NCBI RefSeq assembly: GCF_008711155.1 | Contig: NZ_VUYQ01000001.1 | Location: 682,001 to 746,000 of the forward strand | Direction of reading: 5' to 3' | DNA length: 64,000 nt | DNA from: Dechloromonas sp. CZR5 | GTDB taxonomy: Bacteria; Pseudomonadota; Gammaproteobacteria; Burkholderiales; Rhodocyclaceae | Shown here: positions 8,779 to 63,939 of the stretch, piece by piece | How the letters are laid out: each line of letters begins with the position of its first letter | Position numbering within the stretch: position 1 is the stretch's first letter | Made by a program: the position numbers and the translations under genes | Notes under the pieces: model-generated | The model's database searches: none | What the model was told of the DNA's origin: nothing | What the model saw: the letters and a program-made list of their open reading frames with translations, nothing else

Positions 8779-10169
8779 CCATGCCCGGGCCGTTTTCGCT
8801 TCCCTCTCCGGGCCAGGCCGGCCTGCACACGCGTGTCGGCCTGGTGCTGAGCGCGCTGGCGGCCAGCCTATTGCTGGTGCTGGGCGGCCTGTGGCTGCAC
8901 GCCACGCGCAATGCGGTGCATGAAGAAGTCGAGGCGGCGACGCGGGTGTCGGAGCAATGGCTGAGGGTGGTGATCGGCGAATTGCAGGCGTTGCCGCCGG
9001 ACGTGCGCGGCGAGCGCTTGCTTGCCGTGGCGACGGGCATCGGCCGGGTGCGCGCCAACGTGCTGACGGTGCACGATGCGGGCGGTCAGTTGCGCCATGT
9101 CTCGCCGCCATCGCCCTACAAGGCCGGCCGCGAGGCTCCGGGGTGGTTCGCCGACCTGCTCTCCAGCCCGTTGCCGCCGCGTCATTTGAGCATGGACGGT
9201 TACCGGCTGAGCCTGCTGCCGGATTCGTCGCGGGCAGTGCTCGACGCCTGGGACGAATTGCAGGGCATGGCCGGCTGGGCCTTGCTGGCGCTACTGGCGC
9301 TGTTTGCCGGCGTGCGCCAGGCGCTGGGCCGGGCGCTGCGACCGCTCGATCAGGTCATGCAAGCGCTGGACCGTACCGGGCGCGGCCGTTTCGATACGCG
9401 GCTGCCGCAGTTCGCTTCGCCCGAGCTCGGCCGCCTGGCGCGGGCTTTCAACGGCATGGCCGACCGGCTGAAGGCGGCGGTGGACGACAACGTCCGGCTC
9501 GAGACGGCGAGGGAAGTGGCCGAGCAAATGCAGGCCCGGGTCGAACTGGAGCGTCGCGCCGAGCGCGAGAGCATCGCCCGCGAACTGCACGACGAGTTGG
9601 CGCAAGGCATCACGGCGGTACGCGCGCTGGGCGGCGCCATCGCGCAGCGCACCGCGGAGCAGCCGGCGCTGCACGGTCACGCGCAGAGCATCGTCGCGGT
9701 GACCGGCGAGATGCAGAACGGGGTCCGGCGCATCCTGCATCGCCTGCGTTCCAAGCCGGACGATCTGTCCGTGCGCCTGGCACAGTACATCGAGGCCTGG
9801 CGCGGGCAGCACGGTATCGCGCTGGACAGCCGGATTTCCCTGCCCGATGGCGCGATTGACGACGAGCTGGCGCAAGGGGTGCTGAGGATCGTGCAAGAAG
9901 GGCTGACCAACGTTGTCCGCCATGCGCGAGCCAGCCGGGTCGAACTGACCGTGCTGGCGAACGACGCGGAATGGCGGGTCCGCCTTGCCGACAACGGTTG
10001 CGGCGCCGGCCAGGGGCCGTCGGAGCAGGGCGGTTGCGGGCTGGGCTTGCGGGGTATGCGCGAACGGGTCGCCTTGCTGGGCGGCCATCTGGAATTCACC
10101 AGCCCGGCAGGGGGCGGCTTCGTTTTCGAGGCGCGTCTGCCGGTCGATGCGAGGAGGGTGGTGTCATGA
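8775..10169 (+). CDS. Sensor histidine kinase (NarL/HisKA_3 type) of the quinoprotein locus
   Basis: 464 aa. Membrane segments at about 21-40 and 163-182 enclose a periplasmic sensor domain of about 120 residues. A HAMP domain follows (about 183-240), then the phosphoacceptor helix ERESIARELHDEL with H272, and a HATPase domain with N (EGLTNVVRHA) and G boxes (DNGCGAG, GLGLRGM). The domain order resembles kinases that control PQQ alcohol dehydrogenases (for example PedS2 in Pseudomonas putida), but orthology is only inferred from context. I chose ATG 8775, which overlaps the receptor stop (ATGA). Confidence 0.88.
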   Translation: MTMPGPFSLPSPGQAGLHTRVGLVLSALAASLLLVLGGLWLHATRNAVHEEVEAATRVSEQWLRVVIGELQALPPDVRGERLLAVATGIGRVRANVLTVHDAGGQLRHVSPPSPYKAGREAPGWFADLLSSPLPPRHLSMDGYRLSLLPDSSRAVLDAWDELQGMAGWALLALLALFAGVRQALGRALRPLDQVMQALDRTGRGRFDTRLPQFASPELGRLARAFNGMADRLKAAVDDNVRLETAREVAEQMQARVELERRAERESIARELHDELAQGITAVRALGGAIAQRTAEQPALHGHAQSIVAVTGEMQNGVRRILHRLRSKPDDLSVRLAQYIEAWRGQHGIALDSRISLPDGAIDDELAQGVLRIVQEGLTNVVRHARASRVELTVLANDAEWRVRLADNGCGAGQGPSEQGGCGLGLRGMRERVALLGGHLEFTSPAGGGFVFEARLPVDARRVVS

Positions 10170-52073: not shown

Positions 52074-52233
52074 GTTTGTCTCCTTTTCGATGATGGTGCC
52101 CTGAGGCAACGTCATCGTAGAAGGCAGCGTGTTTTTGGGCATTGGGCAAAAACACAAAAATTAAACATCGGTTAATTTATTTATTGTTCAAATGCACTAT
52201 TCTTGCGGGAAGAATTTCTTGCGAGAAACAAGC

Positions 52234-53388
52234 ATGATGATCGCTCCCGAACTGGCCCAGGAAATCGTCGAACGGGCAATGCAGGTACTGCCGCTCAATG
52301 TCAATGTGATGGATGCACGCGGCATCATCATCGCCAGCGGTACCCCTGAAAGAATTGGCGACCTGCATGCCGGCGCCCAGATGGTGCTGGCTCGCGGCGC
52401 TGCCGTCGAAATCGACCATGCGGCGACGAGCAGCCTGCCCGGTGCCAGGGCCGGTATCAACCTGCCGCTCTATGGGCGCGGCGAGATTTGCGGCGTGGTC
52501 GGCATTACCGGCACGCCGGACGAGGTTCGCCAGTTCGGGCAACTGTTGCGCATCACCGCCGAGATGATCATCGAACAGGCCTTGCTGACCGGCGAACTGC
52601 AGCGCGAGCGGCGCTACCGCGAGGAGTTTGTCTTCCAGCTGCTGAAACGCACCGGCGTTTCGCAGGAAAGCATGGCGGCCTGGGCGGCACGGCTAGGCAT
52701 CGATCTCAGCCAGCCGCACACGGTCACGGTGCTGCACGTTGGCGCCGACGACACCGAGCCCGACCGCCAGCTTCTCGACCTGCAGCGCGCCCAGGGCGAA
52801 CTGCTGAACCGCTGGGAAGACCTGCCCACCGCTGTGCTTTCCCCGTGCGAACTGGCGATTCTGGAACCTTTCGAGCGCTCGGAGCATCCCGCCGAATGCG
52901 CGCGCCAGGCACTGCTTCGCCTGAGCGAGCTGAACGCCCTTGTCGAGCAGCGACTCGAACTCGACTACATGCTGACGTCCGGTGTCGCCTTGCCGGGAAT
53001 CGCCGGCGCCTCGGCTTCCTACCAGTCCGCCGCGACCACCTTCGCCATTGCCCGGCAGCGCGGCGTCAAGCGCCCTTACGCTTCCTTTTACGAGCATACG
53101 CTGCCGGTGCTCCTGGTCGACCTGGACCTGGGCTGGAAAAAGGAACAATTCCTTGCCCCCTTTGCCCGCCTGACCGGCGATGATCCCAAATCGGTCGTGC
53201 TGATCCGGACGCTCCGTGCCTGGTTCGCCAACAACCGGCATCCGACACTGACCGCCAAGGCGCTGCATATCCACCGCAACACGCTCGACTACCGGCTGCA
53301 GAAAATCGGCGAGATGACCGGCATGAATCTCGATGCCATCGACGACACGCTGTTGCTCTACATCGGCATGCACTTGAGTGCGCCGTGA
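52234..53388 (+). CDS. cdaR: CdaR-family transcriptional regulator (sugar acid/glycerate responsive)
   Basis: 384 aa. The N-terminal diacid-recognition domain starts MMIAPELAQEIVERAMQVLPLN and continues VMDARGIIIASGTPERIGDLH, which aligns with E. coli CdaR. The C-terminal PucR-type HTH has KALHIHRNTLDYRLQKIGE. CdaR senses galactarate, glucarate or glycerate and activates uptake and catabolic genes. ATG 52234 chosen over 52192 because the domain begins there. It is divergent from the permease operon across a short AT-rich gap (52074-52233), which should hold both promoters. Confidence 0.9.
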   Translation: MMIAPELAQEIVERAMQVLPLNVNVMDARGIIIASGTPERIGDLHAGAQMVLARGAAVEIDHAATSSLPGARAGINLPLYGRGEICGVVGITGTPDEVRQFGQLLRITAEMIIEQALLTGELQRERRYREEFVFQLLKRTGVSQESMAAWAARLGIDLSQPHTVTVLHVGADDTEPDRQLLDLQRAQGELLNRWEDLPTAVLSPCELAILEPFERSEHPAECARQALLRLSELNALVEQRLELDYMLTSGVALPGIAGASASYQSAATTFAIARQRGVKRPYASFYEHTLPVLLVDLDLGWKKEQFLAPFARLTGDDPKSVVLIRTLRAWFANNRHPTLTAKALHIHRNTLDYRLQKIGEMTGMNLDAIDDTLLLYIGMHLSAP

Positions 53389-53462
53389 GGCATCGGCAAG
53401 CACGATGTCGGCAGGCCGCTTTGCCGACCCGGCCGGGCTTCCTCGCTGCCCGGTCGAGGCAA

Positions 53463-55050
<1,588 letters not shown>

Positions 55051-55062
55051 GATCAGGTCCGT

Positions 55063-55090
55063 TTGTTTATATACGCTACACTATAGCGCA
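55063..55090. promoter_or_regulatory. Candidate ModE operator 1 (modE promoter)
   Basis: Halves TTGTTTATATA and ACTATAGCGCA separated by 6 nt, compared with the published consensus ATCGCTATATA-N6-TATATAACGAT: 13 of 22 positions match. It starts 13 nt before the modE start codon, a typical autoregulatory position. Confidence 0.5.
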
Positions 55091-55175
55091 ATGCGAACGT
55101 CCCGGAAAAACAGGTGGCGCTATGGTTTAAATCGCTGAACGGTATTCGGTACATTATGTTCCAGAGCAAGCCGGA

Positions 55176-55203
55176 ATCGTTGTTCGTATTGGTATATAGC
55201 GAA
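55176..55203. promoter_or_regulatory. Candidate ModE operator 2 (molbindin promoter)
   Basis: Halves ATCGTTGTTCG and TATATAGCGAA separated by 6 nt: 15 of 22 consensus matches, the right half 9 of 11. About 40 nt before the molbindin start. Confidence 0.6.
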
Positions 55204-55241
55204 AACCGGGCCACAATGCCCGACAACTCAGGAGAAAAGGA

Positions 55242-55670
55242 ATGAACGTCAGCGCGCGCAACACATTCAGCGGCAAGATCACCGCCTTGACCGACGGTGC
55301 GGTCAATGCCGAGGTCGAAATCGGCTTGTCGGGAGGCGACAGGATTGTCGCAATCGTGACGGCAGGCAGCGTCAAATCGCTGGGCCTGGCCGTCGGCAAG
55401 GACGCCGTCGCCTACGTCAAGGCCCCTTGGGTCATGCTGCTGGCCGGTCCGCAGAACGTGAGGTTCTCGGCCCGCAACCAGCTGTCCGGCACGGTGAGCA
55501 GCGTGCAGAAGGGTGCCGTCAATACCGAAGTCGGCATCCAGTTGCCAGGGGGAGCGACTGTGTATGCCGTGGTGACCAACGAAGCGGTCATGGAGCTCGG
55601 CCTCAAGGCAGGGGTGGCGGCGACGGCGCTGATCAAGGCCAGCCACGTGATCCTCGGTGTCCCGGCCTGA
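55242..55670 (+). CDS. Molbindin with two Mop domains (ModG-like)
   Basis: 142 aa made of two tandem Mop/TOBE domains, each starting with an SARN motif (MNVSARNTFSGKI and VRFSARNQLSGTV). Such proteins bind molybdate in the cytosol for storage and homeostasis. AGGAGAAAAGG ribosome binding site. Divergent from modE, with a ModE-type site just upstream and a terminator just downstream, so it is a single-gene unit. Confidence 0.92.
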   Translation: MNVSARNTFSGKITALTDGAVNAEVEIGLSGGDRIVAIVTAGSVKSLGLAVGKDAVAYVKAPWVMLLAGPQNVRFSARNQLSGTVSSVQKGAVNTEVGIQLPGGATVYAVVTNEAVMELGLKAGVAATALIKASHVILGVPA

Positions 55671-55690
55671 CGCGACGGCAGCGTTACGCA

Positions 55691-55714
55691 GGGCGGCCAT
55701 GTGCCGCCCTTTTT
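55691..55714 (+). terminator. Terminator of the molbindin gene
   Basis: GGGCGGC-CATGT-GCCGCCC stem-loop followed by five T. Confidence 0.88.
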
Positions 55715-55729
55715 CTGTGTCCGGTGCCG

Positions 55730-57061
55730 TCATAGCGAATGCAGGAAGGCAATCAGCGCCCGGCGCAGGCTGGCTGGGGCGGCGGCATAGCGCTGGCGCG
55801 CTTTCTCCGCTTCGCCGCCGTGCCACAGAATGGCCTCCTCGAAATTTCGTGCCCGGCCGTCGTGCAGGAAACCGACGTCTTCGTTGATCGCGGCCAGTAA
55901 CCCCAATCCCCACAAAGGCGCGGTGCGCCATTGCCGGCCGCCGGCCAGGTGGTCGGGGCGGCTGTCGGCCAGTCGCGTGCCCATGTCGTGCACCAGCAGG
56001 TCGGTATAGGGCGCGAATTCGCGCTGGGCGAGTGCCGGGTATTGCGGGTTGTCGCCGGTGCGCATGTTTGGGCGATGGCAGGCTGCACAGCCGAATCCGG
56101 CAAAGGCCACGGCACCGCGGACGACGAGCGGCGAGGTTTCGTCGCGCCGGGGCGGTGGAGCCAGGTGGGCGACGTAGAAGGTGATGTCGTCGAGTTGCGC
56201 CGTCGACAGTTCCGGCTGGCCGCCGTTGGGCGCATGCCGGCAGGCCGCCTGCGCCGGGGTGCAGTTTTCGTCGGGGAACAGGTCGGAGGTGATGCTCATG
56301 TCGCCGGCAAAGGCGCCGGCAATCTGCTGGCGCAGGTTGGGGGTGTTGGACTTGAGCCCGAAGCGGCCGACGACCGTGGCACCGGTTTGCCGGTCCACGA
56401 CCCGGTTGACGCTGCCGCGAATGCCGTCGGGTCGGAGTTCCCCGGCCATCGCTTCCAGTGCGCTTGGGGGTACGGCGTCGAGCAGGCCGAGGCCGGCGAC
56501 GTGGGGCGACACGCGCAGCGAAGCGAGGACCGGCCCCAGCTTGCCGTAGGCGAGTTCGACGAATTTTGTCCGTGGCTCGCGCAATTCGACGCGCGTGCCG
56601 TCGGCCAGGCGCACCGTATGTGTGCGCCAGCGTATCTGCATGCGGCCTTCGCCAGGCACGCCGGGGATGCCCTCCTCGTTGAGTTGGTCGCCATAGACCG
56701 GGTGAGGTCGCGGGGCTTCCCGGGGCGTGCGGCCGGGGACGGACAGCCGGACGAGCATGGACTGCATGCGTTCGTCCGGGTGGCTCGGCGCGCCGCCGCG
56801 CCCGTTCTTGGCGTGGCAGGAGATGCAGGCCAGGCGGTTGTAGAGCGGGCCGAGGCCGTCGACTTCGCCGTCCCTGGCCGGGGCGATGACCCAGCTTTGT
56901 CGGAAGAGGCTGCGGCCGCGCAGGAATCGCTCGGTGTCACCTGCCGACAGCCCGGATAGCGGCCGGGTCAGGGTTTCGCGGTCAATGGCCGGCTCCGCCA
57001 TGGCGGCGGGGATTGTGCCGGCGAGGAGCAGGGCGGCGAGAAGCTGGCTTGCTGATTTCAT
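55730..57061 (-). CDS. Di-haem DUF1111 protein (cytochrome c peroxidase-like, putative)
   Basis: 443 aa with a signal peptide (residues 1-22, AMAEP), so periplasmic. Two CxxCH haem sites at C79-H83 (CISCH) and C325-H329 (CAACH), with the DUF1111 (di-haem oxidoreductase) layout. Family members are called putative thiol oxidoreductases or peroxidases; the physiological role is unproven. In other bacteria they accompany metal-uptake genes. Start overlaps the stop of the solute-binding protein (ATGA at 57058). Last gene of a five-gene operon. Confidence 0.87.
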   Translation of the reverse strand: MKSASQLLAALLLAGTIPAAMAEPAIDRETLTRPLSGLSAGDTERFLRGRSLFRQSWVIAPARDGEVDGLGPLYNRLACISCHAKNGRGGAPSHPDERMQSMLVRLSVPGRTPREAPRPHPVYGDQLNEEGIPGVPGEGRMQIRWRTHTVRLADGTRVELREPRTKFVELAYGKLGPVLASLRVSPHVAGLGLLDAVPPSALEAMAGELRPDGIRGSVNRVVDRQTGATVVGRFGLKSNTPNLRQQIAGAFAGDMSITSDLFPDENCTPAQAACRHAPNGGQPELSTAQLDDITFYVAHLAPPPRRDETSPLVVRGAVAFAGFGCAACHRPNMRTGDNPQYPALAQREFAPYTDLLVHDMGTRLADSRPDHLAGGRQWRTAPLWGLGLLAAINEDVGFLHDGRARNFEEAILWHGGEAEKARQRYAAAPASLRRALIAFLHSL

Positions 57062-58362
57062 GCGCCGATCTCATCGAGTTGCAGGCGGGCTTGCGTGCGT
57101 CGCTCGCGGCAGGTTTCCCGCCAAGCCAGTTCGAGCGGTGCCAGCGGGCGCTCACCGTTGCCTTCGAGCCGAACGCCGATCTGGCGCTGGATGTCGGGTA
57201 GATTGGCGGTTGCCTCATCGATGGGCGGCCGGCCAAGCAGCGCACGGATGGCGCGGGTATCCTTGCCACCAGTTTCGGCCTGGCGGGTACGTTGCCACAG
57301 GGCTTGCAGTTCGTCCTGGGGGTCGATCAGCATGTGCTGGAAGATCGCCGCCGTGGTCGTCAGGCGAGGGCGGGCGGCGTCGCTGTCGAATTGCAGGCCG
57401 CCCTGGCGGGCCGCGATAAAGGGATCGAAGCTGCCGGCCGGCACCTGGGCGTAGGCGTCCGGGCGAACCGCCAAGCGGCGGATGTCCGGGTGGGCTAGTA
57501 GCCGTTGGCCGGTCGGCGACAGTATGAAATCGACGAATGCCGTAGCGCCGCGCGGGTTGGGAGAGTGTCTGGTGACCGCGATATGGGCCGGGTTGAGGCC
57601 GGTATGGCGGGGATAGACGAAGCGGATGGGCGCACCGTTGGCGATTGCCGAGTTGACGAAGAAATCGATGGAGATGCCGACGGCGCAGCTGCCATTGGCG
57701 ATTTCGTCGGTCACGAAGCTCGATCCGCGTTCGATGAAGCGGGCATTGGCGGCAATTTCGCTCCACAGCGTCCAGCCACGCTCCCAGCCCAGGGCCTGGA
57801 GCACGATTTCGACGATGGGCGGAGCGAAGCCGACGCGTGCGGGGACCGGCATGGCGATTAGTCCGGCCAGGCGAGGGTCGGCCAGGTCGGCCCAGTCGGC
57901 GGGTGTTGGAATGCCTCGGGCGGCGAGCAATTCCGGTGCGATGGCGAAGCCGAAACCGGCGACTTCGGTCGCCGTGTAGAAACCTTCCGCATCGCCGAGG
58001 GCGGTGTTGCCGATACGTCGGGGGAGCTGGCTGTGGTTTGCCGGGAGCTTTTGCCAGGCGCCGCTGGCGGCCAGGCGCGCGAAGCTGCGCGGCGAGGCGG
58101 ACCAATAGATGTCGGCCTTCCCCTGGTCGGGTAGGCTCAGAGTGTCGTAGGCGTCGTTGGGCATGCGCCAGATCACTTGCATCCGGTATTGCGGCCGCTC
58201 CTTCTCGAAGGCGGCCTGGATGCGGGAGACGAATTCGTCCGGGTAGCTGGTGATGACGGTGACGGTGCTCGGGGCGGCCATGGCGCCGCGGCTACCGGCC
58301 AGGGCCAGGGAGGCCGCGCCGAGGAAAAACAGGCGGCGGGAAGGATCGGCGGGGCGGGTCAT
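57058..58362 (-). CDS. Orphan extracellular solute-binding protein (Tat signal)
   Basis: 434 aa. An SRRLFFLG twin-arginine motif at about 8-15 precedes a hydrophobic stretch ending SRGAMA, so it is exported through Tat. The body resembles iron/phosphonate-type ABC binding proteins (VTVITSYPDEFVSRIQAAFEKE, DIYWSASPRSFARL). There is no permease or ATPase in the operon. The C-terminus has an extra charged segment (about 390-434). The ligand is unknown. Overlaps both neighbours by ATGA, so it is tightly coupled to the DUF2478 and DUF1111 genes. Confidence 0.82.
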   Translation of the reverse strand: MTRPADPSRRLFFLGAASLALAGSRGAMAAPSTVTVITSYPDEFVSRIQAAFEKERPQYRMQVIWRMPNDAYDTLSLPDQGKADIYWSASPRSFARLAASGAWQKLPANHSQLPRRIGNTALGDAEGFYTATEVAGFGFAIAPELLAARGIPTPADWADLADPRLAGLIAMPVPARVGFAPPIVEIVLQALGWERGWTLWSEIAANARFIERGSSFVTDEIANGSCAVGISIDFFVNSAIANGAPIRFVYPRHTGLNPAHIAVTRHSPNPRGATAFVDFILSPTGQRLLAHPDIRRLAVRPDAYAQVPAGSFDPFIAARQGGLQFDSDAARPRLTTTAAIFQHMLIDPQDELQALWQRTRQAETGGKDTRAIRALLGRPPIDEATANLPDIQRQIGVRLEGNGERPLAPLELAWRETCRERRTQARLQLDEIGA

Positions 58363-58925
58363 GCGCAGGCTCCGGAAAGCGCCGGCGCATGCTTGCGGCG
58401 ACCGGCTGGGTAGTGCGATAGCCCGGCAAACCAGGCTTCCAGTTCAGGGCGTTCGGGAGGCAGTTCAAACGCTTGCCGGCCAGTGAAGCGCCGCCAGGCC
58501 GGCAGATGCCGGGGCGGAACGATGGTTAGTATCGGAATCTGCCGGCTCATCAGGTCGAGCATTTCGGCCGCAAACCCATGGCCATGCGCTTCCAGGGTCG
58601 AAAAGCGGTTGAAAATGGCGAGATCGGCGCCATGGATAGGGATGCGTCGCATGACGGCACTGGCCTCGGCGATGCCGCCCGTATCGATGCGGCACGATAT
58701 CGAGTGGGTGCCGAGAAACCGGCTGATCGGGTAGAGCCGGCCGTCGTCAAGCGCCACCAGGCGGATCTGTTTCGAGCCCTGGGTCTGGTAGATCTCCTGG
58801 ACCAGTCCACCGATGCGCCATCCCTGGTTGATCTGGGCGATAGCGAAATTGGCGACGACTTCGTCGCAATCCGTCGTCGCGTCGGGGACGACGGCAGCGA
58901 TGGCGAAACGGGTAGCTCCGGTCAT
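58359..58925 (-). CDS. DUF2478 family protein (molybdate-locus type)
   Basis: 188 aa from ATG 58925, placed 11 nt after the receptor stop; upstream in-frame sequence overlaps the receptor and is not used. The fold looks like a small NTPase-like alpha/beta protein (ATRFAIAAVVPDATTDCDEVVANFAIAQ, DLAIFNRFSTLEAHGHGF). DUF2478 proteins have been noted next to molybdenum transport genes, which fits the neighbouring mod genes and ModE sites. Function unknown. No signal peptide, so cytosolic. Confidence 0.8.
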   Translation of the reverse strand: MTGATRFAIAAVVPDATTDCDEVVANFAIAQINQGWRIGGLVQEIYQTQGSKQIRLVALDDGRLYPISRFLGTHSISCRIDTGGIAEASAVMRRIPIHGADLAIFNRFSTLEAHGHGFAAEMLDLMSRQIPILTIVPPRHLPAWRRFTGRQAFELPPERPELEAWFAGLSHYPAGRRKHAPALSGACA

Positions 58926-58935
58926 GGGTGTTCCG

Positions 58936-60957
58936 TCAGAAGCGATAGTTGGCGTTGGCGAACCACATGCGACCCGGATTTGGGAACCCGTAGTCCAATT
59001 CATAGTTCTTGTCGGTCAGGTTGGTGACGCCAGCCTCAAGACTCAACTGCGGCAATGGGCGATACACCGTCTTCAGGTTGATGATCGTGTAGCCGTCGAT
59101 GCGCACGGTATTCGAGGCCCAGCGCCCGGTGTTGTATTCGACGTAGGGAATCACGTCGACCTGCGCCAGCGGCTTGGCGATGGCATAGGCGATGAACTTC
59201 TTGTCGGGGATGCCGGTCAGTCGCGTCGACGGGTTGCTGACGTTGTCCATGTTGAGGTAAGTGAAGTTGCCGCCGACCTCCAGCCAGCTCGCCACCGGCG
59301 TGCGCAGGCTGAGTTCGATGCCGCTGGTGTGCACCTCGCCGACGTTGCGCATCTGGCACTTGGCGGTGGTCGAACACTGGGCGGCGACGGTGCCGACGAA
59401 GACCGACTGGATCTTGTCCGAGATTTCGCTGTAGAACAGCGCCGCTTCGGCCTTGGCGCCGACCCACGGGCTGCCCTGGTAGCCGATTTCGTAGTTGATC
59501 GATGCTTCCGGCTGCAGGTTGGGGTTGGTGTCGTAGGTGCCGAGCTTGCCGGAGTAGCGGTCCTTCAGCGTCGGCAGCCGGGTTTTCTGGGCCACCGTTG
59601 CGTAGAAACGTGTGTTTGGCGCGAAGTCGTAGAACAGGCCGATCTGGCCGTTGTCCGCCTTCTGCTTGTCGGGCAGGGCGTAGCTGCCGCCGTTGGCTGT
59701 GCTCTTGAACACCATTTCCGGCCGCAGTTCGTGATGGGCGTAGCCGACGGAAAGCAGCCATTTTTCGGCCAGCTGGATGTTGTCCTCGGCGGCGATAGAG
59801 AACAGAGTGTCCTTGAATTCGGCGCCGAGCACGGCCAGAGCATCGGTTTCCTGGTGGCGGTCGCTACGGTAGTGGGTGACCAGGCGGAGGGTGTTGTTGG
59901 CGATGCGCGTCGACTCCAGTTCGACCGAGCCACCGGTGGTCCTGTCGTCGTAGAGGCTGCGGCCAGTGCCGACCGAGCCGCTGCCGGAGGTCTTGAGCAC
60001 GTTGTAGTTGCCGTTGGTATAGGTGGCCAGCCCGTTCTTGAAGGTGTCCACGTAGAGCCGGGTCTTCAGCGTTTCGTGCTGGCCGAGGGCGGTTTTCGAC
60101 AGGAAGTAGAGGCTTTCCTTGTCCCAGGATGGCCATTGCCAGTAGCGGGCGCTGGCCGGGATGGTATTCGGTGGCTGGCCTTTCTCGCCATCCTGCTTGA
60201 CATAGCTCAGTGCGTATTCGTCGGTGGCGTTCGGGGTCAGACCCAGCTTGAGCGACACGCGGCTGTCCTTGCGATAGGAATTGTCGCGATGGCCGCCGTT
60301 TTCGCTGGCCGTTGACTGGAAGTCGGAGGACAGCGGGAAGTAGTCGGAGTCGATATAGGAAGCCCCGGCCTGCAGGTACCACAGACCCTGATTGGTACCG
60401 ACATTCACCGCCGCCTTGCGCTCGTTGCCCGAAGCGAAGCCGATCGTCGCATCGCCTTCCAGCTTTTCGCGCGGCTTGCGCGAGATCAGGTTGATGGCGC
60501 CGCCGATGGCGTTCGGGCCGTAGGCAACCGAACTGAAGCCTTTGACCACCTGGATGGCGGCCAGGTCGAAGGTCGAGAACCGATTGAAGTCGACGTAACC
60601 GTCGTATGGCACGTAAACCGGAATGCCGTCGATGTAGAGCGGCACCTGGCGCACGTCGTAGCCGCGCACGTTGATCATCTTCTCGTTGCGGGTGCCGTTG
60701 GTGACGCTGATGCCGGGCAGCAGGTTGACTGCGTCGGCGACGTTTTCCCGATTGAAAGTCTGCATGTCCTGGCGGGTGACGACTGAGGCGACCTGTTCCT
60801 CGCCGACTTCGCCCACTTGCACTTTCCGGGCGCTGACCTGGATGGTACCGAGCTCGAAAGCCGGTCCGGCGGCCAAGCCGCTGCCTGCGCCCAACAGGTT
60901 GGTCATGACGGCGGCCAGGGTGGTTCGTCGGGTCGACCGGGATTTGTGGTTCAGCAT
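58936..60957 (-). CDS. TonB-dependent receptor of the ModE-linked operon
   Basis: 673 aa with a signal peptide (about 1-29). Plug domain at about 45-160 (NLLPGISVTNGTRNEKMINVRGYDVRQVP, VAYGPNAIGGAINLISRKP), followed by a barrel ending FANANYRF with terminal Phe. It is neither FecA- nor BtuB-like by eye; the ligand is unknown. Its position after an XRE regulator, before the DUF2478 and binding-protein genes, and downstream of ModE-type sites suggests a molybdenum or tungsten compound. Its start overlaps the XRE gene end by 7 nt. Confidence 0.88.
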   Translation of the reverse strand: MLNHKSRSTRRTTLAAVMTNLLGAGSGLAAGPAFELGTIQVSARKVQVGEVGEEQVASVVTRQDMQTFNRENVADAVNLLPGISVTNGTRNEKMINVRGYDVRQVPLYIDGIPVYVPYDGYVDFNRFSTFDLAAIQVVKGFSSVAYGPNAIGGAINLISRKPREKLEGDATIGFASGNERKAAVNVGTNQGLWYLQAGASYIDSDYFPLSSDFQSTASENGGHRDNSYRKDSRVSLKLGLTPNATDEYALSYVKQDGEKGQPPNTIPASARYWQWPSWDKESLYFLSKTALGQHETLKTRLYVDTFKNGLATYTNGNYNVLKTSGSGSVGTGRSLYDDRTTGGSVELESTRIANNTLRLVTHYRSDRHQETDALAVLGAEFKDTLFSIAAEDNIQLAEKWLLSVGYAHHELRPEMVFKSTANGGSYALPDKQKADNGQIGLFYDFAPNTRFYATVAQKTRLPTLKDRYSGKLGTYDTNPNLQPEASINYEIGYQGSPWVGAKAEAALFYSEISDKIQSVFVGTVAAQCSTTAKCQMRNVGEVHTSGIELSLRTPVASWLEVGGNFTYLNMDNVSNPSTRLTGIPDKKFIAYAIAKPLAQVDVIPYVEYNTGRWASNTVRIDGYTIINLKTVYRPLPQLSLEAGVTNLTDKNYELDYGFPNPGRMWFANANYRF

Positions 60958-61328
60958 GGAGTCCTTCCTGACTGTGGCAAATTGGCTGATGACAGTGAAT
61001 GTGTTGGCTCGCCTTCCGGCAGGATGATTTCGATGTGCTGGTCGGGAAAACGGACGAGCAGTTCAAGTTCGCCACCGAGAGCGGTGACGTGGCGGCGCAG
61101 CGTCACCAGATGCATGTCGGCCTGGTTTTCGAGTTGCGCTACCTGCGGCTGGGAAACCCCGAGTCGGACGGCCAGTGCGGCCTGTGACAGGCCGAGCAGG
61201 CGGCGCAATCCGCCCAGGCTGACCGACGGAGTCTGATCGGTGCGGCAGGTTGGAGCTGACAGGATGGAGGTCTCGCAGGGTATCGCTCGGCGATGCCGTA
61301 ATGGTGTGGAAGGTGGGGTGGCGTTCAT
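60951..61328 (-). CDS. XRE-family HTH regulator
   Basis: 125 aa. HTH at about 38-70 (LRRLLGLSQAALAVRLGVSQPQVAQLENQ), then the VTLRRHVTALGGELELLVRFPD segment typical of HigA-like small XRE proteins. It has an N-terminal extension of about 35 residues. No toxin gene is adjacent, so it is probably a regulator rather than an antitoxin. First gene of the receptor operon, overlapping it by 7 nt. No obvious ribosome binding site at ATG 61328. Confidence 0.78.
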   Translation of the reverse strand: MNATPPSTPLRHRRAIPCETSILSAPTCRTDQTPSVSLGGLRRLLGLSQAALAVRLGVSQPQVAQLENQADMHLVTLRRHVTALGGELELLVRFPDQHIEIILPEGEPTHSLSSANLPQSGRTPC

Positions 61329-61424
61329 CGTGGAGTGACCAGAAGAGGTTTCAAGGCTGGGTTTTTTGCTTCTTCCGTGTACCGTCCAGAGACGGAGGGT
61401 TGAGCCTTTTGAAGTCTTCCATGG

Positions 61425-61452
61425 GTCGTTATGTTTATTTGTATATATCGAT
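61425..61452. promoter_or_regulatory. Candidate ModE operator 3 (XRE operon promoter)
   Basis: Halves GTCGTTATGTT and TATATATCGAT with a 6-nt spacer: 17 of 22 matches to the ModE consensus, the right half 10 of 11. About 100 nt before the XRE start. Confidence 0.68.
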
Positions 61453-61508
61453 TTTTGCTGTAATTTCTAATGATCGGTTATTAATTAATGTGTTGCGTTA
61501 GGTTATGT

Positions 61509-61536
61509 ATCGATATGTATGTAACTATACAACGAT
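61509..61536. promoter_or_regulatory. Candidate ModE operator 4 (second receptor side)
   Basis: Halves ATCGATATGTA and TATACAACGAT with a 6-nt spacer: 19 of 22 matches to the ModE consensus, the best site in the window. It lies between the two divergent units. Confidence 0.72.
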
Positions 61537-61779
61537 ATCGATGGGTTCGCATGGGCGGCATCGTATTTCGGCATTGAGCTTGCATATTCAGGTTGCTTTC
61601 CGTACATGAAAGGTCGGGCGCTGGGCAGTCAGGCGTACGCTCGGCGAGGCAATGTCGCCGCCGTCTCATGATTTTCTGTAGGCAACTCAGGCGATCGTTT
61701 GGAGGTGAATGACGGGCGAAGCCGGAACAATCGCTCCTGGGGCAGCCGCGCGCCTGCCGAAAAAAATACAGGAGACAAC

Positions 61780-63939
61780 ATGAATACCCATCTTTCCGCA
61801 CGGATTGCCCGGCCCAGCCGGATGGTCGCCCTGCTGGCCGTCACCTTTCCCGGGCTGGCCATGGCCGATGCCGTGGTGAACCTCGACACGGTCGTCGTCA
61901 CCGGCAGCCGCGTCGAGCACAACAGCTTCGATCTGCCGGCGGCCATCGACGTGGTCGATGCAGCGCGCATCGGCGCCGACCAGGCCCGTGTCAATGTTTC
62001 GGAAGCGCTGGCTTCCGTGCCCGGCATCACGGTCCAGAATCGCCAGAACTACGCGCAGGACCTGCAGATTTCCTCGCGCGGTTTCGGCGCCCGCTCGGCG
62101 TTCGGCGTGCGCGGCATCCGCCTGGTGTCCGATGGTATCCCGGCCTCGATGCCGGACGGCCAGGGGCAGGCTGCCACCTTCAACCTGGATCGTGCCGAGC
62201 GCATCGAGGTCATGCGCGGACCGATGTCGGCCATCTACGGCAACCACGCCGGCGGGGTGATTCAGATGTTCACGCCGGATGGCAAGGGGGCGCCGAGTGT
62301 CGAGGGCAGTTTCGCGGCGGGCAGCTATGGCACCTGGAAGACCAATCTGAGCGCCCAGGGCGAGGTCGGCGGCCTCGGCTACGTGATCGACGCGTCGCGC
62401 TTTGCCACCGACGGCTATCGCGACCGCAGCGCCGCCGAACGCGACCAGACCCTGGTCAAGCTGACCTACCGGCCGAGCCAGGACGGCAAGCTGACCTTCA
62501 TCGTCAATACCTTCAGACAGGATGCCCAGGATCCGCAGGGTCTGCAGTGGTCGGAATTCAAGGCCAATCCACGCGGCCTGGCATGGGATGCGGCGCGCAA
62601 CAACTATCCGGTGCTGGCCTACGATACCCGCAAGAGCATCGACCATACGCAAGGCGGCCTGACCTACGAGCATCGCTTCGGCGACCACAGCGTCCAGCTA
62701 TCCACTTATGCCGGTCAGCGTTCGACGACGCAGTACCAGTCCATTCCGGTGGGAACCCAGACCTCGTCGGCCCGACAGTCCGGCGGGGTGATCGATTTCG
62801 ACCGCCAGTTCGCCGGTTTGGCTGGCCGGTGGACCGGGCGTTTCGGCTTGGCCGGCGGCCGCCTGACGACAACGCTCGGGTTCGACTACGAGCAGGCGAC
62901 CGACGACCGGCAGGGTTACGAGAATTTTGTCGGCAGCGGAACGCCCGCCAACTGCATCGCCAACATCTGCGGCGTCACCGGCCGCCTGCGCCGCAACGAG
63001 GAAGATCGCGTCGCGACCTTCGATCAGTATGCCCAGGCCGAGTGGCAGGGCGAGCGCTGGGTGTTCAGCGGCGGCCTGCGTCACAGCAGCATCGCCTTCC
63101 GGGTCGATGACCGCTATCGCAGCGGCGTCAATGGCGATGACGGCGGTCGTGTGAGCTACGACAAGACGACGCCGACCGTTGCGGCGATGTATCGGGTCAC
63201 CGATACGCTCAACATCTACGCCAGCGCGGCGCGCGGATTCGAGGCGCCGACCTTCAACGAAATGTTCTATTCCAGTGGTGGCGGCTCCTTCAATTTCTCG
63301 CTCAAGCCGGCGACCAGCACGCACCTCGAAGTCGGTGCCAAGGCCATGCTCGGTACCAACAGCCGCCTTGACGTGGCGCTGTTCGATATCAAGACGCAGG
63401 ATGAACTGGTCGTGCTGTCCAGCACCGGCGGCCGGACGGCCTACCAGAACGCCGGCAAGACGGAACGGCAGGGCGTGGAAGTGGCACTCGATAGCCGCTG
63501 GGGCGAGCAGGTGAGCAGCCGTCTGGCCTACACCTTCCTCGATGCGCACTATGCCGAGAACTTCTCGACGTCCACCGGCATCGTCTCGGCCGGCAGCCGG
63601 CTGCCCGGTATCGCCGCCCACAACCTGTTCGGCGAACTGGTGTGGCGGCACAAGCCGAGCGGCTTCCACGCCGCCATCGAAGGTATCGTCCGCGACAAGG
63701 TGTACGTCGAAGACAGCAACCTGCGCCAGGCGGCGCCCGGCTACGCCATCGCCAACCTGCGCATCGGCATCGACCGCAAGGTCGGTCCGCTGAGCCTGCG
63801 CAGCTTCGTCCGCCTCGACAACGCTTTCGATCGCCAGTACGTCGGTTCGGTCATCGTCGGCGACAGCAACAACCGCTTCTACGAGTCGGCACCGGGTCGC
63901 AACTGGCTGGCCGGCGTGAGCGCCCGTTACGCATTCTGA
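61780..63939 (+). CDS. Second TonB-dependent receptor of the ModE-linked region
   Basis: 719 aa from ATG 61780, preceded by CAGGAGA; the long upstream frame to 61699 has no good start. Signal peptide to about residue 29 (LAMADAV). Plug at about 38-170 (VVVTGSRVEHN, LASVPGITVQNRQNYAQDLQISSRGFGARSAFGVRGIR, IYGNHAGGVIQMFTPDG), then a barrel ending VSARYAF with terminal Phe. Divergent from the XRE operon and sharing two ModE-type sites with it. Ligand unknown. Confidence 0.88.
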   Translation: MNTHLSARIARPSRMVALLAVTFPGLAMADAVVNLDTVVVTGSRVEHNSFDLPAAIDVVDAARIGADQARVNVSEALASVPGITVQNRQNYAQDLQISSRGFGARSAFGVRGIRLVSDGIPASMPDGQGQAATFNLDRAERIEVMRGPMSAIYGNHAGGVIQMFTPDGKGAPSVEGSFAAGSYGTWKTNLSAQGEVGGLGYVIDASRFATDGYRDRSAAERDQTLVKLTYRPSQDGKLTFIVNTFRQDAQDPQGLQWSEFKANPRGLAWDAARNNYPVLAYDTRKSIDHTQGGLTYEHRFGDHSVQLSTYAGQRSTTQYQSIPVGTQTSSARQSGGVIDFDRQFAGLAGRWTGRFGLAGGRLTTTLGFDYEQATDDRQGYENFVGSGTPANCIANICGVTGRLRRNEEDRVATFDQYAQAEWQGERWVFSGGLRHSSIAFRVDDRYRSGVNGDDGGRVSYDKTTPTVAAMYRVTDTLNIYASAARGFEAPTFNEMFYSSGGGSFNFSLKPATSTHLEVGAKAMLGTNSRLDVALFDIKTQDELVVLSSTGGRTAYQNAGKTERQGVEVALDSRWGEQVSSRLAYTFLDAHYAENFSTSTGIVSAGSRLPGIAAHNLFGELVWRHKPSGFHAAIEGIVRDKVYVEDSNLRQAAPGYAIANLRIGIDRKVGPLSLRSFVRLDNAFDRQYVGSVIVGDSNNRFYESAPGRNWLAGVSARYAF

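Follow-up and report, generated by a model that had tools for sequence, protein, structure and literature searches.

We analyzed a 64,000-nucleotide stretch of the Dechloromonas sp. CZR5 genome (the window), in which five genes at 55730-61328 form an operon around a TonB-dependent receptor. Judged from its sequence, this operon is probably (roughly 70%) a ModE-repressed, TonB-dependent outer-membrane uptake module for a molybdenum (Mo) compound such as a Mo complex or chelate, or possibly for tungsten (W). Two tandem ModE-type sites precede the operon, sites and receptor are conserved together in relatives, and the receptor is linked to mod genes. By these sequence comparisons, the ModE-linked TonB receptor family is real and conserved. 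In Gram-negative bacteria, passive porins are usually credited with letting scarce molybdenum through the outer membrane. We found no description of a ModE-controlled TonB receptor in the open-access literature searched; regulon databases may list such receptors as predictions. ModE is described as a repressor of molybdate transport when Mo is abundant (PMC9542535).

Tandem ModE-type sites upstream of the operon

The published E. coli-type ModE consensus is given as CGNTATATA-N6-TATATANCG (PMC545781), and the window was scored with the 24-base core, holding 16 fixed letters, of ATCGNTATATA-N6-TATATANCGAT from the same paper. The two sites upstream of the operon, which a reading of the sequence alone had called strong, each matched 14 of the 16 letters and held up as the top two of the whole window. 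The next two were the sites between modE and mop (Table 1), and all other places scored at most 10/16. With an earlier pattern, the operon sites scored 14 and 13, the modE/mop sites 12 and 12, and one place inside the gene for the di-haem oxidoreductase (DHOR, DUF1111) scored 11.

The whole genome (4.29 Mb) was scanned with the pattern CGNTATRT-N8-AYATANCG, whose degenerate letters were picked after the sites had been seen. Only the two operon sites appeared at 0 and 1 mismatch, and seven more places appeared at 2. The modE and mop sites had 3 mismatches to this pattern and did not stand out. As far as letter scores can tell, the two putative operators of the operon are beyond chance; for the modE/mop pair, window rank and position are what suggest a function. 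The genome has 21 Plug-domain matches in a profile search, and the upstream regions of seven other receptors in it reached no more than 10/16 for the ModE consensus.

When the window was aligned by blastn with the related locus L093 (94% receptor identity), the alignment ran from about the start of the XRE regulator gene onward. The only intergenic matches were two stretches of 27 and 33 bases, and these contain the two ModE-type sites.

Conservation of the sites in receptor relatives

A receptor profile built from the window and from loci L041 and L049 was searched in GTDB species genomes. Relatives were encoded in 458 stretches; the analysis used the top 80 of these, loci L093-L172, with 46-94% identity. 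These 80 loci came mostly from Beta- and Gammaproteobacteria, and their taxa included Dechloromonas, Azonexus, Thiobacillus, Sideroxydans, Janthinobacterium, Duganella, Methylophilus, Acinetobacter, Pseudomonas, Thiorhodococcus and one metagenome-assembled genome (MAG) of the Bdellovibrionaceae. At E ≤ 1e-100, relatives were present in at least 6 of 369 genomes, the genome studied here included, with at most three candidates scored per genome. Gene calls in the loci were heuristic, and some neighbouring open reading frames (ORFs) are probably on the wrong strand or overlong.

Within 900 bp upstream of the receptor match, a ModE-type site of at least 12/16 was present in 73 of the 80 loci, of at least 13 in 68, and of at least 14 in 51. 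The controls reached 13/16 or more in 4 of 1600 dinucleotide shuffles and in 7 of 1186 random 900-bp windows of the same loci; some of the random-window hits may be genuine sites of mod operons. Reversing the ModE pattern gave a poor control, since A and T alternate in the motif (in the same 300-bp stretches the reversed pattern reached at least 13 in 23/80 loci, versus 66/80 for the motif), and shuffles and random windows were used instead. Two or more sites of at least 12/16 were found in 48/80 loci, with 39 of 52 spacings falling between 60 and 135 bp. In the operon-type relatives L093, L094, L095, L103, L106 and L113, two sites, spaced by 99-110 bp, preceded or surrounded the start of an extra small leading gene.

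Linkage to mod genes

Neighbour matches below 150 bits (ModC), 200 bits (PqqU) or 100 bits (receptor) were dropped, as were weaker overlapping matches. By this count, at least one mod gene stood in 43 of the 80 loci, with ModE in 38, Mop in 32, ModA in 31, ModB in 30 and ModC in 20. In comparison loci of the same family (L050-L079; 9-18.5 kb long and searched with other thresholds), 0/30 had a ModA, ModB, ModE or Mop match. In 12 of the 80 loci the 3 kb upstream of the receptor held a ModA, ModB or ModC match on its strand, and in 6 loci the 3.5 kb downstream did. L103 (Azonexus hydrophilus DSM 23864) has the complete operon together with mod genes.

The order was modA-modB-modC-receptor in L041 and L049, where the receptor gene is the fourth. 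ModA and ModB of these loci passed the equivalog cut-offs for molybdate and fell short of those for tungstate (WtpA/WtpB); ModC was under its cut-off. In three Acinetobacter loci (L162, L164, L166) and in Rheinheimera L169, modABC followed 3' of the receptor on the same strand.

A NifQ-type cluster was found near the receptor in 11 loci (L098, L100, L104, L108, L116, L133, L149, L160, L165, L167, L168; L100 profile-tested). NifQ is a molybdenum donor for nitrogenase. Only one of these 11 genomes, that of L098, had nifH over the cut-off; the other ten had none, which is less certain for L116 and L160 because they are MAGs. NifQ may therefore act as a molybdenum chaperone outside nitrogen fixation. 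The Dechloromonas sp. CZR5 genome also has no nifH over the cut-off.

Tandem operators, and a receptor travelling with modABC, modE, mop and nifQ, point to an uptake system for Mo starvation. The sequence-only reading had proposed a ModE-controlled TonB receptor operon for molybdenum, and the sites in 68/80 relatives and mod genes in 43/80 support it. It had also proposed to look in related genomes for the full gene set beside mod genes, with ModE sites upstream. The receptor with its ModE site and mod genes did recur; XRE was present in only 4/80 loci and DUF2478 in 11/80, so neither is an essential part.

Exchangeable periplasmic partners

Comparison of the 80 loci suggests that the receptor is accompanied by interchangeable periplasmic modules of three kinds. 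For the neighbour families named by cluster (NifQ, PF00174, FecB, FecCD), one to five members per family were put to a profile test.

The first module is that of the window, a solute-binding protein (SBP) with a DHOR. It was found in 13 loci, plus L172 with an SBP at the contig edge; in all, the SBP was counted in 14 loci and DHOR in 13.

In the second, a small PF00174 protein (molybdopterin-oxidoreductase fold) adjoined the receptor on its strand in 52/80 loci (by blastp, with heuristic ORF starts). The 52 PF00174 loci and the 14 SBP loci did not overlap. All five members tested, in L097, L100, L145 and L162 of the 80 and in L043, matched the PF00174 profile, and two also had a cytochrome c domain. 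The column presumed to hold the Mo-ligand cysteine was Cys in 28 of 56 aligned PF00174-type proteins. These small proteins (L100:11909-12451 and 51 further loci) are possibly non-catalytic binders of pterin or molybdate.

The third module consists of FecB/FecCD-type ABC genes. The FecCD cluster was present in 7 loci; the Peripla_BP_2 cluster, which shares some loci with the other kinds, was present in 15. At L049:9792-16918, and also in L043 and L048, genes for a FecB-like protein, an ABC ATPase, a methyltransferase and a second TonB receptor stand beside the ModE-linked receptor, a possible chelate transporter.

The partner labels were mapped on a quick receptor tree, in which L125 was only 46% filled and three outgroup rows had very long branches. 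The SBP/DHOR label (15 rows) needed 4 changes versus a shuffled mean of 14.1, and the PF00174 label, assigned to 39 rows by a narrower neighbour rule, needed 15 versus 30.1. So few changes indicate that the modules are clustered on the tree.

Folds of the operon proteins

Among solved structures, the receptor matched CirA, PhuR and BtuB only distantly by sequence, with 83.7 bits at best.

The SBP model (predicted local distance difference test, pLDDT, 87.1) gave VIA Z scores of 25-31 to structures of AfuA, HitA, FbpA and MctA, an overall FbpA-type fold. The best was 30.6 to AfuA 4r72, with a root-mean-square deviation (rmsd) of 2.6 over 306 residues. The SBP was also near P5PA 6wce, which like AfuA 4r72 binds phosphorylated organics. 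In the SBP alignment D233-F234-F235 was invariant, and these residues may stand where the iron-binding tyrosine pair of FbpA-type SBPs is expected. The SBP gene has no permease or ATPase gene alongside. From its Tat-like signal, read from the sequence, the SBP is predicted to be periplasmic and Tat-exported. DHOR is presumably periplasmic as well; it had no PDB sequence match at E 0.01.

PDB sequences gave only chance-level matches to DUF2478. Its model (pLDDT 88.9) resembled THEP1-like NTPases, with VIA Z 14.5 to 2i3b over 160 residues and 14.1 to 1ye8 over 154 residues (rmsd 3.2). None of 20 aligned DUF2478 sequences had the Walker A motif GxxxxGK[ST], which makes NTP hydrolysis doubtful. 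We rejected DUF2478 as a general molybdenum marker. Among the 40 family genomes that matched, most have a distant group (29-41% identity, blastp), which is mostly found in another conserved gene set without mod genes (loci among L050-L079). In L057, the one such locus that was profile-tested (DUF2478 at 8893-9417), the neighbours are an RNB-domain protein, a TonB_C protein, shikimate dehydrogenase, a transglycosylase and ThiC. The nearer group adjoins mod genes, TonB receptors or molybdoenzymes.

The divergent PqqU-type receptor

A second TonB receptor gene is transcribed away from the operon, and the sequence-only reading had treated the two receptors as a pair. The second receptor is similar to E. 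coli YncD/PqqU over nearly its full length (6v81; also 9c4o), at 663.8 bits against the 1200-bit cut-off of the NCBIfam PqqU equivalog. Its ATG is likely at 61780, which places the operators about 250-350 bp away. PqqU-type matches at E ≤ 1e-60 were found in 65 of 150 family genomes, our genome included.

That both receptors form one unit of the molybdenum regulon is unlikely. They do flank the two ModE-type sites in the window, and ModE could affect the PqqU-type gene in this genome. Against this, none of 29 PqqU orthologues had a ModE-type site of at least 12/16 (best 11/16; for L203 only 173 bp upstream were available), none of the 80 receptor loci had a PqqU match of at least 200 bits, and in L093 other genes stand upstream. 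On these counts the second receptor is not part of the unit, and the comparisons suggest that the pairing is probably incidental.

Proposed mechanism and points against it

In the mechanism that we propose, Mo-loaded ModE would sit on both tandem operators when there is enough Mo, and the operon would be off. At low Mo the operon would be made, and the receptor, energized through TonB, would bring the Mo compound into the periplasm. The Tat-exported SBP and the di-haem protein would receive the compound there and help Mo release. Freed molybdate would reach the cytoplasm through ModA and a ModBC permease, whose genes lie elsewhere in the genome, and would be stored by molbindin. Other lineages would keep receptor and operator, their periplasmic part being a PF00174 protein, sometimes with cytochrome c, or a FecB/FecCD-type ABC transporter. 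An energized receptor is useful mainly for a ligand that is too large or too rare for porins, which favours a Mo complex, and the FecBCD-type partners agree with this. The haem and PF00174 partners suggest periplasmic redox or pterin chemistry.

Several points weigh against this proposal. Since free molybdate can fit through porins, the ligand of a TonB receptor would have to be bulkier or very scarce. The fold class of the SBP comprises binders of ferric ion, sugar phosphates and metal citrate, and it is not ModA-type. DHOR proteins are described in association with iron uptake (PMC3143127).

Other points concern the sites. Seven of the 80 loci (L101, L107, L111, L114, L120, L171 and L172) had no site of at least 12/16 within 900 bp. 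Four of them (L101, L107, L120 and L172) come from genomes with a ModE-domain match, and L101, L107 and L111 branch among site-bearing relatives on the receptor tree. L101 has two sites 1.3-1.5 kb upstream, outside the 900 bp, and the L172 locus is cut by a contig end. Five more distant receptors had a site in two cases (L225 16/16, L226 13/16) and none in three. Genome-wide, the pattern given above found 139 places at up to 3 mismatches, versus 184 for the reversed control. We consider the published-consensus score in the window the cleaner test because the genome-wide letters were chosen post hoc and were not enriched at this level. For the genome's own modBCA genes, on contig C29, the best ModE-type score was 12/16, at 3.5 kb beyond modA.

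The linkage is also incomplete. No mod gene was found in 37/80 loci; 19 of the 80 loci were cut short by contig ends to less than 21 kb. Still, 31 of the 37 mod-less loci carry a site of at least 13/16, so the ModE link is independent of gene position. A ModE-domain match was present in 25 of 26 genomes searched (those of 25 of the 37 mod-less loci and of L101), over the cut-off in 20. The only genome without a match was that of L171, which also lacks a site.

Alternative cargoes and regulators

It is improbable that, with ModE control being real, the cargo is a chelate of iron or another metal, called for by a higher iron need of Mo-starved cells or of Mo enzymes, after the example of the Mo/V-responsive siderophore receptors of Azotobacter. 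In A. vinelandii, VnfA1 is described as controlling TonB siderophore receptors that are made in the absence of Mo and V (PMC9542535), and the FecBCD-type neighbours, of which one or two members per cluster were profile-tested, also fit such a cargo. What argues for molybdenum is that the ABC transporter beside the receptor in L041 and L049 is molybdate-type, that same-strand ModA, ModB or ModC adjoin the receptor in up to 18/80 loci, and that the NifQ-type cluster accompanies it.

We think it quite unlikely that the receptor scavenges an organic Mo compound such as released molybdenum cofactor or a molybdopterin derivative. The PF00174 protein beside the receptor and the closeness of the SBP to binders of phosphorylated organics would suit this cargo; the presumed Mo-ligand cysteine, however, is kept in only half of the aligned PF00174-type proteins, and the cofactor is unstable outside proteins.

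An ordinary Fur-controlled iron-siderophore or haem receptor that stands beside mod genes by chance is very unlikely: CirA, PhuR and BtuB are among its closest structures, at low scores, the SBP fold class includes ferric-binding proteins and the iron link of DHOR is as cited above, but ModE-type sites precede 68 to 73 of the 80 receptors, those of mod-less loci included, and the Fur consensus reached at most 13/18, in 2/80 loci, no higher than in shuffles. Fur control was rejected; in the window itself the best Fur match in 61241-61800 was 10/18. The consistent Fur control without mod genes that the sequence-only reading had named as a sign of error was thus not seen in the 80 loci, where the Fur consensus was unenriched.

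A ModE-repressed uptake module for a molybdenum compound remains our preferred reading. A broader form of it is tentative, and we would rather bet against it than for it: TonB systems under ModE control may, as a whole class in Beta- and Gammaproteobacteria, import an organic Mo compound (a dedicated molybdophore complex or scavenged cofactor), with periplasmic DHOR, cytochrome c or PF00174 proteins stripping the Mo before ModABC.

If the ModE-repressed module is real, molybdenum would join the substrates of TonB receptors, and the receptor family would be named. Many genomes could be judged by one testable rule, a receptor preceded by tandem ModE operators, and the module would bear on nitrate respiration and nitrogen fixation where molybdenum is low. 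It would also give a molybdenum context to families so far unexplained: the nearer DUF2478 group, DUF1111/DHOR, the small PF00174 proteins and NifQ without nifH.

Comparison with known systems

TonB-dependent uptake of metal chelates (siderophores, or lanthanides through LutH and the lut cluster, PMC11317620) resembles the proposed system in its Plug and barrel receptor, its periplasmic binding protein and its control by the presumed cargo metal, but here the regulator is ModE rather than Fur and the metal would be Mo or W. To our knowledge, a periplasmic module with DHOR or PF00174 proteins is unlike that of known TonB metal-chelate systems. The ModE-ModABC system of E. coli and Azotobacter (modEABC) shares the regulator family, the operator consensus and the ModA and Mop genes alongside, and in L041 and L049 the receptor directly follows modA-modB-modC. 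In contrast, as described in PMC545781, PMC9542535 and PMC11734730, the known system starts at periplasmic ModA, with no energized outer-membrane step.

The TonB siderophore receptors of A. vinelandii are alike in being made only without Mo and V (PMC9542535). They are controlled by VnfA1, whereas ModE-type sites are found here, and the likeness is one of description. Type VI secretion system-secreted ModA with outer-membrane IcmP in Pseudomonas aeruginosa is likewise an outer-membrane molybdate route, but its description in PMC11734730 has no TonB receptor. IcmP is described as an imelysin (PMC3143127). EfeUOB/imelysin operons have a DUF1111/DHOR protein in a metal-uptake operon (PMC3143127); unlike them, none of ten window proteins scanned (52192-63939) had an imelysin domain or EfeU. 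E. coli PqqU (YncD) is homologous to the second receptor over nearly its whole length, but that receptor is under the equivalog cut-off and is not conserved together with the molybdenum system.

Operon layout and neighbouring genes

As shown in Table 1, the genes claimed by the sequence-only reading (the operon, with modE, modA and molbindin alongside) were all real and had the domains ascribed to them. On the minus strand the order from 61328 to 55730 is XRE, TonB receptor, DUF2478, SBP and DHOR, followed by mop (+), modE (-) and modA (-). None of the five operon genes encodes ModA, ModB or ModC; the ModA gene lies beyond modE.

Table 1. Features of the receptor operon and its surroundings (window coordinates)
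Feature	Position	Strand	Evidence or remark
ModE-type operator 1, 24 bp	61427-61450		14/16 to published consensus
ModE-type operator 2, 24 bp	61511-61534		14/16; 84 bp from operator 1
ModE-type site upstream of modE	55065-55088		12/16
ModE-type site upstream of mop	55178-55201		12/16
XRE/HTH_3 small regulator, first gene of operon	60951-61328	-	HTH_3 domain match
TonB-dependent receptor, 673 aa, system core	58936-60957	-	PF07715 80.1 bits, PF00593 123.7 bits
DUF2478 protein	58359-58925	-	PF10649
SBP, Tat-like signal, AfuA/FbpA fold class	57058-58362	-	PF13343
DHOR/DUF1111 di-haem oxidoreductase	55730-57061	-	PF06537, E 1.1e-81
Remnant of small leading gene (C-terminal part; unknown family)	61243-61341	-	tblastn and blastn against relatives
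mop (molbindin), two TOBE domains	55242-55670	+	PF03459, TIGR00638
modE, DNA-binding and two TOBE domains	54232-55050	-	TIGR00637 108.7 bits (cut-off 98.5)
modA, molybdate-binding protein	53463-54209 (ORF listed from 54323)	-	TIGR01256 234.6 bits, over cut-off
Divergent PqqU-type receptor	61780-63939	+	534 bits to E. coli YncD/PqqU 6v81

Neighbouring genes overlap by 4-7 bases at XRE/receptor (60951-60957), DUF2478/SBP (58359-58362) and SBP/DHOR (57058-57061), which fits a single transcript. These short overlaps had been noted before and stand. The long overlap also claimed between DUF2478 and the receptor was a start-site artefact: judged by its L093 relative (78% identity), DUF2478 probably begins at 58925 and not at 59003. 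The modA start is likely 54209 rather than 54323.

The true start of XRE is probably downstream of 61328, near 61247, because 61243-61341 is what remains of a small gene that relatives carry whole. The remnant was detected by tblastn (39% over 33 aa, E 0.001) and also by blastn against L093. In the operon-type relatives L093, L094, L095, L103, L106 and L113 the intact leading gene, of 126-156 aa, opens the operon; the L093 copy had no Pfam or NCBIfam match. The window has apparently lost the 5' part of this gene and kept both operators. Promoter-like and terminator-like scans of 61300-61800 found nothing.

Elsewhere in the same genome, modBCA lies on contig C29 at 166-169 kb. The region C29:160000-197999 (L091, L092) holds two modBC(A)-type sets, neither with a convincing ModE site; the second is partial and is followed by another TonB receptor (C29:187104). 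A further TonB receptor gene, followed on the same strand by one for a DUF1513 protein, lies at window coordinates 74928-79317 (L010:11929-16318), 11 kb past the window end.

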